From contig CAJWYM010000029.1 in NCBI GenBank assembly GCA_913049555.1, forward strand, positions 1 to 41,496: a stretch of 41,496 nucleotides of DNA, read 5' to 3'. Every line of letters begins with the position of its first letter. Position 1 is the stretch's first letter. Positions 6,975 through 11,085 of the stretch are shown here, piece after piece. Made by a program: the position numbers and the translations under genes. Below the pieces are notes generated by a model. That model was not told the DNA's origin. It did no database searches and saw nothing but the letters and a program-made list of their open reading frames with translations. The stretch is from an uncultured Opitutia bacterium (GTDB lineage: Bacteria; Verrucomicrobiota; Verrucomicrobiia; Opitutales; CAJWYM01).

Positions 6975-8048
6975 ATGGCAATGACGTTTAAACCCGGTGT
7001 CGTAACAGGAGACGACCTACAATCTTTATTTAGCTTTGCAAAGGAGAAATCTTTTGCAATGCCTGCAGTGAATTGCGTGAACACAAGTTCTGTAAATTGT
7101 GTGATGGAAGCCGCTGCCTCATTGAATGCGCCCGCAATGATTCAATTCTCTAACGGAGGTGGAGTTTTTTACGCTGGAAAGGGTATGAGCAATGAAAACC
7201 AACAAGCTGCAATTGCGGGTTCTGTTTCCGGTGCCAAACACATTCATGACATGGCAGAGAAGTATGGAGCCGTGATTGTTTTACATACGGACCATTGCGC
7301 TCGTAAATTACTCCCTTGGATGGATGGTATGTTGGATGAGGGTGAAAAGTTTTACCAATCAACTGGGAAGCCTCTTTTTAGCTCCCATATGATTGATCTT
7401 TCTGAGGAGCCGATCGAAGATAATATTGATACTTGTAAGAGTTACCTAGAGCGCATGAGCAAAATGGGAATGACTCTTGAAATTGAATTAGGAGTTACTG
7501 GGGGTGAGGAAGATGGCGTAGACAATACGGATATTGATTCTTCCAAATTATACACCCAACCTGAGGAGGTCGACTATGCATATACGGAGTTGATGAAAGT
7601 GAGCGATAAGTTTACGGTTGCGGCTGCTTTTGGGAATGTTCATGGGGTCTACAAACCTGGGAATGTTCAATTGACTCCGGTAATTCTTAAAAACTCTCAG
7701 GAGTATGTAAAAGCCAAACACAACATTGCAGAGCACAACCCAATAAATTTTGTATTTCATGGCGGTTCTGGCTCTACAGTCGAAGAAATTCGTGAAGGAA
7801 TCAGCTACGGTTCCATCAAGATGAATATCGATACCGACCAACAATGGGCAATGTGGGAAGGGGTTTTAGATTATTATAAGACAAACGAAGCCTATTTACA
7901 GGGACAAATTGGCAATCCAGATGGAGACGACAAGCCCAATAAAAAATACTACGATCCTCGCGTTTGGCTAAGAGCGGGTGAAAATACATTCATCGCCCGT
8001 CTGAAAAAAGCGTTTGAAGATTTGAATAACGTGAACACTCTTTCTTAG
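6975..8048 (+). CDS. fbaA: Class II fructose-bisphosphate aldolase
   Basis: Zn-dependent cleavage/condensation of fructose 1,6-bisphosphate in glycolysis and gluconeogenesis. 357 aa, the length of the E. coli FbaA subtype (class IIA) rather than the shorter IIB forms. VLHTDHCARKLLPW (from residue 102) carries the catalytic Asp106 and zinc-ligand His107. AAFGNVHGVYKPGN (near 220) and VFHGGSGS (near 262) supply further zinc and phosphate ligands. A second glycolytic gene, pgi, lies far away at 36.5 kb. Transcription ends at a strong hairpin just downstream. Confidence 0.97.
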   Translation: MAMTFKPGVVTGDDLQSLFSFAKEKSFAMPAVNCVNTSSVNCVMEAAASLNAPAMIQFSNGGGVFYAGKGMSNENQQAAIAGSVSGAKHIHDMAEKYGAVIVLHTDHCARKLLPWMDGMLDEGEKFYQSTGKPLFSSHMIDLSEEPIEDNIDTCKSYLERMSKMGMTLEIELGVTGGEEDGVDNTDIDSSKLYTQPEEVDYAYTELMKVSDKFTVAAAFGNVHGVYKPGNVQLTPVILKNSQEYVKAKHNIAEHNPINFVFHGGSGSTVEEIREGISYGSIKMNIDTDQQWAMWEGVLDYYKTNEAYLQGQIGNPDGDDKPNKKYYDPRVWLRAGENTFIARLKKAFEDLNNVNTLS

Positions 8049-8072
8049 TTTATAATACCAAGAAAGTTTTTA

Positions 8073-8101
8073 AAAACGGTCTTATCTAGACCGTTTTTTT
8101 T
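8073..8101. terminator. Bidirectional intrinsic terminator between fbaA and the oleA-like gene
   Basis: Stem AACGGTCT (8075-8082) pairs with AGACCGTT (8088-8095) across a 5-nt loop. A run of T follows on the + strand and a run of A precedes it, giving a U-tract on the minus strand too. It sits between two convergent genes, 25 bp after the fbaA stop. Confidence 0.85.
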
Positions 8102-8193
8102 ATGCCTAATGAGCGCTTGTGCCTGGACTCTTTTGCTCCGAATTCCTCATGAGTTTTATGCTTGAATCTTATTTTCTATTGCCTCAACTGGGT

Positions 8194-9237
8194 CTACTGT
8201 TCGACGCTTGCAGAAACCATGATAGAACTTAGACCACTGCCGATTCCGAGTAAAGCTGCTTTGCTTCCTACTTGGATGACTTCTTTCTCCCAACCCATCG
8301 CTAAAGTAATGGGAACGGATACGGATCCGACGTTGCCTAGCGTTTCAAAGGTTGAAAAATCTTTTGAAACCTCGAGATTGAGGCCTTCATAGAGTTTGTT
8401 GCGGTGAGTTTTGCCGACTTGATGGCAGAAAATCTTATCAGGGGTCTGGCTGGTCCATCCGGAAACCCTCTCAAATCTTTTCCAGGCTCTCTGGGCTGTC
8501 TGGATCCCTGCGACTAAAAGTTCTTCAGAATCCGTCTGCATAGCGAGTTCCTCTTGATTTGCAGAATCTCCCTCGCACAGATGATTGAAGGAAGAATCTG
8601 TCTCATTAACTATATGGTGTAGTCGGATCCATTCTTTTGTTGTTACCACGGATTCATGACAGAGCGTGGCTGCAACGCAGCCAGCACCAATGGTCAGATT
8701 TGCAAAGAATGGTTTGATTTGTTTGCGATTGAGGTCAGAAGTTAAGAGTTGATGGATTGTATTTTGAACAAGGGGTTTTCCATTCTCACCAGCCACGATC
8801 AAGATGCGTTTTGCTTGTCCAGATTCAATCAAACCTGCACCCAGACAGATTGCATTTAGAAAGCCTAAGCATGCATTGGAAATGTCTAAAATTTGTGTTT
8901 TTCCACTTAATTTAAGATTTCTATGCACATAAGAGGCGGTGGCGGGCTCTAGACGATCTCTACAAACTGAGGAATGAATGACTGCATCGATCTCCTCTTT
9001 TTGGATGGGTAGTTTTTCTAAAAGTTTTTTGCCTGCTAGAGAACTAGCCTCTGAGGGTCGGATCGCTTCACTCCAAAACCTCCGAGACTTAATTCCTGTC
9101 ATGAGCTCTAGTCTGCCCTCAGGAAGACGAAGCCTTTCATAAAGAGGTCTTAATTGTTCTTCTAAGTAACTAGAGGTCCAAACCTCATCCGGAAGATCAT
9201 AATCCATGGACTCAATGACGACATTTTTAAAATTCAT
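8194..9237 (-). CDS. OleA-like thiolase / 3-oxoacyl-ACP synthase III homologue
   Basis: 347 aa thiolase-superfamily condensing enzyme. The triad is visible: Cys123 in NACLGF, His272 in CHQVGKTH and Asn302 in LGNVGSVSVP. It resembles OleA, which joins two acyl-CoAs head to head by Claisen condensation, more than FabH. The N-terminus (LRPLYERLRLPEGR, then GIKSRRFW) and CRDRLEPATAS match my recollection of Xanthomonas OleA, including the Glu (Glu97 here) that corresponds to OleA Glu117, brought in from the partner subunit. No oleB, oleC or oleD is adjacent. It lies 136 bp downstream of ribF and may be read through from that cluster. The alternative is a FabH-like synthase of unknown product; the OleA assignment is by motif, not alignment. 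Confidence 0.72.
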   Translation of the reverse strand: MNFKNVVIESMDYDLPDEVWTSSYLEEQLRPLYERLRLPEGRLELMTGIKSRRFWSEAIRPSEASSLAGKKLLEKLPIQKEEIDAVIHSSVCRDRLEPATASYVHRNLKLSGKTQILDISNACLGFLNAICLGAGLIESGQAKRILIVAGENGKPLVQNTIHQLLTSDLNRKQIKPFFANLTIGAGCVAATLCHESVVTTKEWIRLHHIVNETDSSFNHLCEGDSANQEELAMQTDSEELLVAGIQTAQRAWKRFERVSGWTSQTPDKIFCHQVGKTHRNKLYEGLNLEVSKDFSTFETLGNVGSVSVPITLAMGWEKEVIQVGSKAALLGIGSGLSSIMVSASVEQ

Positions 9238-9373
9238 TTTTTTTGGAGGCTAGAGGTTTAGTGAATCTCTTTAAAAGTATTGGATCTTTAATCCTTCCTC
9301 CTAATTCTAGTCGATCCTATTTTTGGAAAGATTGAATGGGACTGAAAGGGAATTTTGATGAATTTTAGGATCC

Positions 9374-10336
9374 TTAGATTATGAGTGGTGGGATTTTCAT
9401 TTTGAGGAGGAACTTTTTTGAATCTTCCAAATCTAATTTTATCTGCTGTTTGAGATCGTCTAGAGATGCAAATTTTTGTTCGCTTCTAATAAATTGAATC
9501 CAATCAATTTTTAATTCTTTGCCAGTGGTCCATGAGCAGGAATCCTCTAAAACATGAATTTCTAAGAGGGGTTTGTTGGTCTCAGAATTAACCGTCGGAC
9601 GAAGTCCAAAATTGGCAACTCCCCAAGCGGAATCGCTTTCGGAGTGAACTCTTACCAAATAAACTCCAAATCGAGGTCTTTTCTCGGGATCATAGGCGAT
9701 GTTGAGAGTCGGAAATCCAATCGTTCGTCCCAGTTGTTTTCCAGTGATTACTTTTCCCGAGCAAGCATAAGGCCTGTTTAACATAAAGTTGACTTCACTC
9801 AAATTTCCATCTGCCAATTCTTTTCTTATTCTGGAAGAGCTGATCGGTTGCCCTTTATAAAGTTTTCTGGGCAATCCGTGTATTTGAATCCCTAGTTTTT
9901 TTCCTTGCGAGCTCAGAAGCTGTAAGTCACCGATTCTTTTTTTCCCAAAGCGGAAGTTTTCTCCTACAAAGAGGGACTTCAGGGAATGAATCTTGGAGTG
10001 TAGGAGAGGTAGAAACTGGTCTGCCTCAATGGCTGCAAAGGAACGAGTGAATTCAATTTCAATTAAAAGTTGTATTCCAATGTTTTCTAGTAAATCTTTT
10101 TTATGAACAATATTTTGGATCATTTGAGTGGGGTCATCAGGACGAATCAAATGGCTAGGATGGGGCCAGAAAGTCAAAACAGCCGGAGTTAGATTTTCTG
10201 CTTTGGCAAATTCAATACAACGGTTTAAGACGGCTCTGTGGCCTAGATGAACTCCATCAAACATTCCAAGCGCAAGTGCAATCGGAGTCTGCATTCCTTC
10301 CCATTCCTCCAAGGACTGTATTTTTTTGATGGCCAT
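9374..10336 (-). CDS. ribF: Bifunctional riboflavin kinase / FAD synthetase
   Basis: Converts riboflavin to FMN and then FAD. 320 aa, normal length. The N-terminal nucleotidyltransferase domain carries GMFDGVHLGH (about 24-33) and FWPHPS. The short FAD-synthetase block SSSRIRKEL precedes the C-terminal flavokinase domain, marked by GKQLGRTIGFPTLNI (about 199-213). It is the usual last member of the nusA-infB-rbfA-truB group and starts 17 bp after the truB stop. Confidence 0.96.
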   Translation of the reverse strand: MAIKKIQSLEEWEGMQTPIALALGMFDGVHLGHRAVLNRCIEFAKAENLTPAVLTFWPHPSHLIRPDDPTQMIQNIVHKKDLLENIGIQLLIEIEFTRSFAAIEADQFLPLLHSKIHSLKSLFVGENFRFGKKRIGDLQLLSSQGKKLGIQIHGLPRKLYKGQPISSSRIRKELADGNLSEVNFMLNRPYACSGKVITGKQLGRTIGFPTLNIAYDPEKRPRFGVYLVRVHSESDSAWGVANFGLRPTVNSETNKPLLEIHVLEDSCSWTTGKELKIDWIQFIRSEQKFASLDDLKQQIKLDLEDSKKFLLKMKIPPLII

Positions 10337-10353
10337 TCTATTTCTTCAGATTT

Positions 10354-11085
10354 TTAAAGGACATAAGAGGGGACTGCTTTGTAGACAGGGAGGAGAAGCT
10401 CTTTAATTTCATTTTCTGAAAGAGTCAGAATCTTGTCTAAAGTATGCGCTTGATCAATCTTCATCGATCCAATTGCAGTTCTTCGCAGGGCCGAAAGATG
10501 AGCACCACATTGCAACTTTTCCCCTGTATCATGAGCCAAAGTCCTTACATAGGTTCCTTTGCTGCAATGAACCTTGAAGTCAAAAGAGGGAGACTCATAG
10601 TGGGTAAGTTGAAAACTGGTAACATTAATTATGCGAGGCTCTCGTTCTACTTCTTTCCCTTTTCTCGCTTGCTTGTAAAGAGGTTGGCCGTTGATTTTTT
10701 TGGCGGAAAACATGGGGGGTAATTGGTATTGGTCGCCTTTAAAAGTGTTGAGAGTGGATTGGATGGTCGCTGCTTCAAGGTCTTCGGGCAAAGGTCTTTC
10801 TTCAATCACTTGTCCGTCCGCATCTTGAGAATCCGTTTTAATCCCTAGCAGAACGGTGCCTGTATAAATTTTATCCTGGCTCATGAGGTATTGAGAAACT
10901 TTCGTTGCTTTTCCAATCATTATAATTAGAAGGCCAGTCGCCATTGGATCTAAGGTTCCAGCGTGACCGGTCTTTTTGACTTTTAAATAATTGCGCAATT
11001 TTGCCACTACATCATGGGAAGTCCACTCTTTTGGTTTGTCTACCAGTAATATTCCTTCTAAATCGCTATTTCTTGGGTTCGGCAT
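10354..11085 (-). CDS. truB: tRNA pseudouridine-55 synthase
   Basis: Makes pseudouridine at position 55 of the tRNA T-loop. 243 aa. [17 protein letters not shown] (from residue 11), [17 protein letters not shown] with the catalytic Asp46, and the later [14 protein letters not shown] block are typical. The C-terminal region is shorter than E. coli TruB, so the PUA domain is reduced or absent. It overlaps the preceding nrnA-like gene by 20 bp, implying tight coupling in the operon. Confidence 0.96.

Follow-up and report, generated by a model that had tools for sequence, protein, structure and literature searches.

A thiolase gene next to the nusA-ribF cluster of a bacterium from the order Opitutales (phylum Verrucomicrobiota) raises the question of whether its product condenses two acyl-CoAs head to head, as OleA does, or performs the chemistry of FabH, and whether it works alone. 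The DNA analysed here, hereafter the window, comprises 41,496 bases and is the entire contig C29 of a draft genome (3.10 Mb, 102 contigs, 95.3% complete, 0.84% contamination). Open reading frame analysis reveals an uninterrupted frame of 347 residues on the minus strand at 8194-9237, where the plus strand is crowded with stops, and this is a real gene (Table 1). One flank carries fbaA and lipA, the other ribF, truB, a DHH protein gene, rbfA, infB and nusA (nusA, truB and ribF were identified by search; infB, rbfA and the DHH protein were named from their translations), which confirms the adjacency to the nusA-ribF cluster described in the initial annotation.

A link between oleA and ribF or nusA was rejected, since none of the named oleA loci compared (80, the best matches out of 570 relatives) has ribF in its available flanks. 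No relative of oleA was found among viral contigs in a search sensitive to close relatives only, and a viral origin was likewise rejected. A scan of positions 7900-10500 returned one promoter-like and no terminator-like site, both lower than the means for shuffled sequence (4.0 and 2.8, respectively). Elsewhere in the window, a plus-strand frame at 98-727 encodes 209 residues, with much Glu, Ala, Ser and Gly in the first part and much Pro in a later one; at E 1e-3 it matches nothing in Pfam or NCBIfam.

Table 1. Features of the oleA locus and candidate partner genes in the same draft genome (positions refer to the window unless a contig is given).
Feature	Position	Strand	Basis
oleA, OleA-type thiolase (predicted non-decarboxylative Claisen condensation of two acyl-CoAs)	8194-9237	-	NF006720/PRK09258, tree, folds
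Glu97 codon, counterpart of OleA Glu117	8947-8949	-	Alignments, codon read
Cys123 codon, catalytic cysteine (OleA Cys143)	8869-8871	-	Invariant; also in FabH
His272 codon (OleA His285)	8422-8424	-	Invariant; also in FabH
Asn302 codon	8332-8334	-	Invariant; also in FabH
ribF, upstream neighbour, end gene of the nusA-infB-rbfA-DHH-truB-ribF run, outside the pathway	9374-10336	-	Profile match
Inverted repeat with A/T runs, resembling a two-way terminator; possible shared terminator of the converging oleA and fbaA	8071-8098		By eye; automatic scan lists none
oleC candidate	C5:79925-81559	-	NF006754, 545 bits (cut-off 478)
oleD candidate	C48:27966-28949	+	OleD models best
oleB candidate	C33:30890-31768	-	Haloalkane-dehalogenase-like

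Family models, phylogeny and predicted structure all place the window protein with OleA. Its best curated NCBIfam model is NF006720 (PRK09258), on which it scores 391 bits (cut-off 285), and it fails both FabH models tried (101 bits, cut-off 249; 87 bits, cut-off 292); a control, the OleA of Xanthomonas campestris, scores 468 bits on NF006720 and 128 and 113 bits on the two FabH models. The window protein is only about 32% identical to this characterised enzyme. Its 12 best matches among PDB sequences, all with E values near 1e-48 or lower, comprise eleven X. campestris OleA entries and the X. oryzae entry 3fk5; the best sequence after these is at 7e-16. We also built the thiolase tree proposed in the initial annotation from OleA and FabH rows only (46 in all: 6 FabHs and 40 OleA-like proteins, one of them X. 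campestris OleA). The protein falls outside FabH, in an OleA clade of 40 that includes X. campestris OleA, and this clade and the FabH clade of 6 are each supported at 100/100, with the caveat that X. campestris OleA, the sole characterised OleA in the tree, sits on a long branch (2.9) and is flagged by the program as unsure in its placement.

The predicted single-chain structure, modelled with 26 sequences (pLDDT 91.6, pTM 0.91), leads to the same family. Among its 28 best chains in Foldseek, 27 are X. campestris OleA and the other is 3fk5, from X. oryzae and titled FabH. Structural comparison with the top eleven OleA entries gives Z scores of 46.6-47.2 at 1.6-1.7 Å; for X. campestris OleA (PDB 3row and its mutants), Z is about 47 at 1.6 Å, with 337 residues aligned. 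The best chain outside OleA is StlD (Z 37.8), followed by FabH (Z 37.4), which has the same fold, and PqsD (Z 37.1), which shares the superfamily fold but lies nearly ten Z units under OleA.

The active-site residues were invoked in the initial annotation as evidence for OleA. All four are where they had been placed, and Cys123, Glu97, His272 and Asn302 are invariant across 12 relatives from the order and X. campestris OleA. The equivalence of Glu97 with OleA Glu117 also holds, as in the same alignment column 3row_A carries Glu and 5vxh_A, titled E117D, carries Asp. Their diagnostic value differs: the Cys-His-Asn triad is common to all six FabHs examined, so that of the residues cited only Glu97 discriminates, being Glu in 40/40 OleAs and Phe in 6/6 FabHs of the tree alignment. 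Glu117 is said, in the title of Jensen 2017, to be key to OleA condensation. Glu97, which in an OleA would be expected to reach the active site of the partner subunit, falls in the second least certain block of the predicted single chain (residues 91-100, mean pLDDT 65). PMC7064751 describes prediction of thiolase function from sequence alone as currently impractical; as judged by family model, tree, predicted fold and the Glu97/Phe difference, the window protein is an OleA and not a FabH, as first proposed.

The initial annotation further described this oleA as a lone gene without oleBCD, allowing as its last alternative that other pathway genes lie elsewhere. Within the window the absence stands, since tblastn with the genome's own candidates found none of oleB, oleC and oleD in the 41,496 bases at E 1e-3. 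It does not extend to the genome: the search for the three genes that had been suggested found likely copies of all of them on three other contigs, which makes oleA no longer alone at the genome level and bears out that last alternative. The OleC candidate passes NF006754, and its next two matches, both olefin beta-lactone synthetase models, fall below their cut-offs (412 bits against 900; 401 against 850); a search of PDB sequences with OleC gave no match at E 1e-30. The OleD candidate has the OleD model NF042422 as its best family (390 bits) and scores 382 on a second OleD model, both under the cut-off of 580, and it retains YxxxK and GGxGFxG. In eight-row alignments with relatives, D113, W114 and H273 of OleB, Y136 and K140 of OleD, and TSGSTG of OleC are invariant, which we take to be the catalytic motifs.

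The family assignment of oleB is the weakest of the four. Its product scores under every haloalkane dehalogenase cut-off (151 bits against 241, 134 against 466 and 132 against 265), no dedicated OleB model is among its matches, and the PDB sequences that it matches best, 8ckp and 8ooh, are named alpha/beta fold hydrolases. X. campestris OleB is itself assigned putatively, in PMC10503415, to subfamily III of the haloalkane dehalogenases. The likely identification as OleB comes mainly from homologues that adjoin oleA in relatives (76 of the 80 named loci, best 80 of 570). Family membership is established for oleA and oleC, and oleB and oleD likely belong to theirs. Other long frames lie on both sides of each ole gene, on C29, C33, C5 and C48 alike, and the separation is therefore not an effect of contig ends.

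To place this arrangement in context, we compared gene layout across relatives. The named oleA loci, again the best 80 of 570, carry titles of Opitutales, Opitutia, Puniceicoccaceae, Opitutaceae, a few genera, plain Verrucomicrobia, one 'bacterium' and one Akkermansia. In 76 of these 80, oleB follows directly 3' of oleA on the same strand with a gap of 0-363 bases, encoding proteins 39-58% identical to the OleB of the window genome; for the remaining four, the available sequence stops 413 bases, 4.8 kb, 10 kb and 10 kb past oleA. Two gut Opitutales loci (L115 and L125) have oleA without oleB in the 10 kb downstream. Cultured strains in which oleA and oleB are neighbours include Cerasicoccus maritimus and IMCC26134. 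Neither oleC nor oleD was detected in the available flanks of any of the 80 loci, which cover about 10 kb on both sides in 29 and at least 5 kb in 42; the same queries recover oleC and oleD in loci known to contain them. Weak OleD matches in 16 of the 80 loci, 24-30% identical, were taken as other reductases. To learn whether oleA had moved away from the present neighbours of its partners, we searched the same best 80 of 570 for the reading frames flanking oleB and oleC and for the hydrolase that follows oleD: dgt gave one match, the hydrolase one and the others none, an outcome that points neither way.

The second half of the pathway is grouped more loosely. The 40 best OleD rows from other genomes (217 in all), less G036 and G230, for which no oleC place is listed, were compared by hand. 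In 31 of these 38 genomes no more than 5 kb separates oleC from oleD, and in the other seven the two genes occupy different contigs. Lower-scoring genomes are looser still, with oleC and oleD about 8 to 58 kb apart on the same contig in G211, G243, G235, G113 and G251. Eight genomes (G019, G034, G089, G093, G113, G125, G134 and G211) have all four places on one contig. There, oleA and oleB always lie within 0.25 kb of each other, and oleC and oleD do so in five, the others being 3.4 kb (G019), 7.9 kb (G211) and 35 kb (G113) apart; oleAB is separated from oleC by about 0.37 to 3.3 Mb by coordinates, a distance that is shorter for some when measured round the circle. Taken together, these adjacency and distance data indicate that the common layout is a tight oleAB pair distant from a looser oleCD pair, and that both pairs are broken in the window genome.

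Across the order, the four genes tend to occur together. We searched 273 Opitutales genomes, a set holding no second genome from the family of the window organism, for oleA at E 1e-25 and for oleB, oleC and oleD at E 1e-40, and detected oleA in 212, oleC in 217, oleD in 218 and oleB in 228. All four are present in 192 of the 273, a figure that is unaffected when 16 weak OleB matches (families f7 and f28, E 1e-43 to 1e-56) are excluded; none of the four is found in 28 genomes, or in 44 with those 16 set aside. No genome of the 273 has oleA as its only ole gene, and 208 of the 212 with oleA also have oleB. Partial sets include oleC and oleD only (11 genomes) and oleA and oleB only (4 genomes). 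Because the genomes are related, Fisher values for this co-occurrence are not independent evidence. Three small-genome families (about 0.6-1.1 Mb) have 27 listed members, of which 16 carry four genes and 11 three; these are the strains with at least one ole match, and matchless members may exist. Listed members of family f16 are without all four ole genes, and those of families f7 and f28 (0.7-1.0 Mb) are without oleA, oleC and oleD and keep a distant OleB-like hydrolase. In G064 (6 contigs, 99% complete), oleC and oleD were found and oleA and oleB were not, as if one locus had been lost.

Beyond the order, oleA was detected in 77 of 288 sampled Verrucomicrobiota genomes: 42 belong to Opitutales and 35 to other classes, with the remaining orders of its own class yielding none. 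Of these 35, 26 have a strong OleC (E 1e-90 or better), eight have none at E 1e-40 and one has only a weak match. Seven of the nine genomes without a strong OleC belong to a single family, f54, other members of which do have OleC; draft gaps may explain some of the nine absences, and one of them, G509, has oleB beside oleA (locus L176). Six f54 loci (L177, L178, L179, L183, L185 and L186) encode OleA-like proteins with the diagnostic Glu, in genomes (G466, G419, G499, G461, G480 and G445) with no OleC at E 1e-40, and the frame next to oleA in L178 resembles an aconitase, judging from its first residues. Among 20 of the 35 loci from other classes that were examined, oleB is adjacent in six, and neither oleC nor oleD occurs in the flanks of any of the 20, most of which have about 8 kb.

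From family membership, motif conservation and order-wide co-occurrence, we consider it highly probable that the window gene encodes the OleA that begins a complete, known olefin pathway whose genes sit at four separate loci. By analogy with the ole reactions set out in PMC7064751, OleA would condense a pair of long-chain acyl-CoAs head to head, and the resulting 2-alkyl-3-oxoalkanoate, a beta-keto acid, would be reduced to a beta-hydroxy acid by OleD, encoded on contig C48; OleC (contig C5) would then close a beta-lactone, and its decarboxylation by OleB (contig C33) would yield an internal olefin with long chains. The known pathway is the source of these reactions, chain lengths and product, and the olefin would probably be a membrane component.

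Several other readings of the gene were weighed. A role as a diverged FabH, or as some other KAS III enzyme, condensing acyl-CoA with malonyl-ACP in ordinary fatty acid synthesis, appears exceedingly improbable: the shared fold and Cys-His-Asn triad are compatible with it, as is the NCBIfam description of NF006720 as '3-oxoacyl-ACP synthase III', but X. campestris OleA passes that model too, the FabH models are far under cut-off, tree, Glu97 and fold all agree on OleA, and the genome encodes a separate true FabH elsewhere (456 bits on PRK09352). The FabH, PqsD and lone-enzyme readings were set aside on the evidence described. A polyunsaturated C31 hydrocarbon made through a PUFA synthase was also rejected, as the three ketosynthase frames in the draft are only 418-431 residues long and no large Pfa synthase was found in the draft genome.

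The remaining two alternatives concern the partners. In a 102-contig draft with four genes on four contigs, the partner contigs might be contamination and the organism might have oleA without the pathway; we regard this as very unlikely, given a contamination estimate of only 0.84%, a G+C fraction of 0.39-0.44 for the four ole genes against 0.36-0.42 for seven stretches of the same genome, and the fact that each ole gene has a single match in the genome at the search thresholds and homologues throughout the order. It is somewhat easier to imagine, though still unlikely, that OleA acts by itself, or has just OleC and OleD as partners, so that synthesis ends with a long-chain ketone, a keto acid or a beta-lactone instead of an olefin. 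Clusters of oleA, oleC and oleD without oleB make secreted beta-lactones, according to PMC7064751, and oleB in the window genome is apart from oleA and the least firmly assigned; its likely presence, however, together with the homologues adjoining oleA in relatives and the near-constant company of oleB across oleA-bearing genomes, argues for the olefin pathway. In sum, the window gene encodes a typical OleA in an uncommon location, most likely serving the known olefin pathway from dispersed genes.

This arrangement differs from those described elsewhere. While the genome holds likely members of all four families of the oleABCD pathway known from other bacteria (PMC7064751, PMC7158056), the former source describes clusters with 0 to 3 intervening genes (Fig. 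6 legend), a spacing at odds with four genes on four contigs, and even relatives keep oleAB adjacent and oleC near oleD in most cases. X. campestris, where PMC7064751 reports that OleA, OleC and OleD are coexpressed with OleB, contrasts with the window genome, in which oleA is unlinked to the other three. Ole genes in Verrucomicrobia and Opitutae are known already: freshwater metagenome-assembled genomes of the same class, large and small, are reported in PMC5673642 to carry an 'oleABCD operon', for which carbon storage is suggested, whereas in the relatives analysed in this work the layout is split. What is modestly new is this split layout and its retention in genomes of about 0.6-1.1 Mb. 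Our literature search yielded no published description of a split ole layout; Sukovich 2010, reportedly a cited source on the oleABCD olefin pathway, lay outside that search.

These findings have consequences for how ole pathways are counted and for the cells that carry them. PMC7158056 found ole clusters, Verrucomicrobia among them, through the neighbourhood of OleA hits, and the 235 OleA homologues displayed in PMC7064751 are those with flanking oleCD; neighbourhood-based surveys of this kind could miss lineages with a split pathway. Long-chain olefin synthesis may be a core membrane trait of Opitutales, and perhaps of much of Verrucomicrobiota, encoded at unlinked loci, kept in genomes of about 0.6-1.1 Mb and under-counted by surveys that need ole genes beside oleA, a generalisation that we hold with evenly divided confidence; in a minority (the nine of 35 oleA genomes outside the order without a strong OleC, seven of them in one family), some may make a different product. 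The Ole enzymes of Xanthomonas work as large multi-enzyme assemblies (PMC10503415), and should the split pathway operate, the products of four unlinked genes would have to be balanced for such assemblies. That the pathway is kept in very small genomes suggests that olefins are of importance to the cells.
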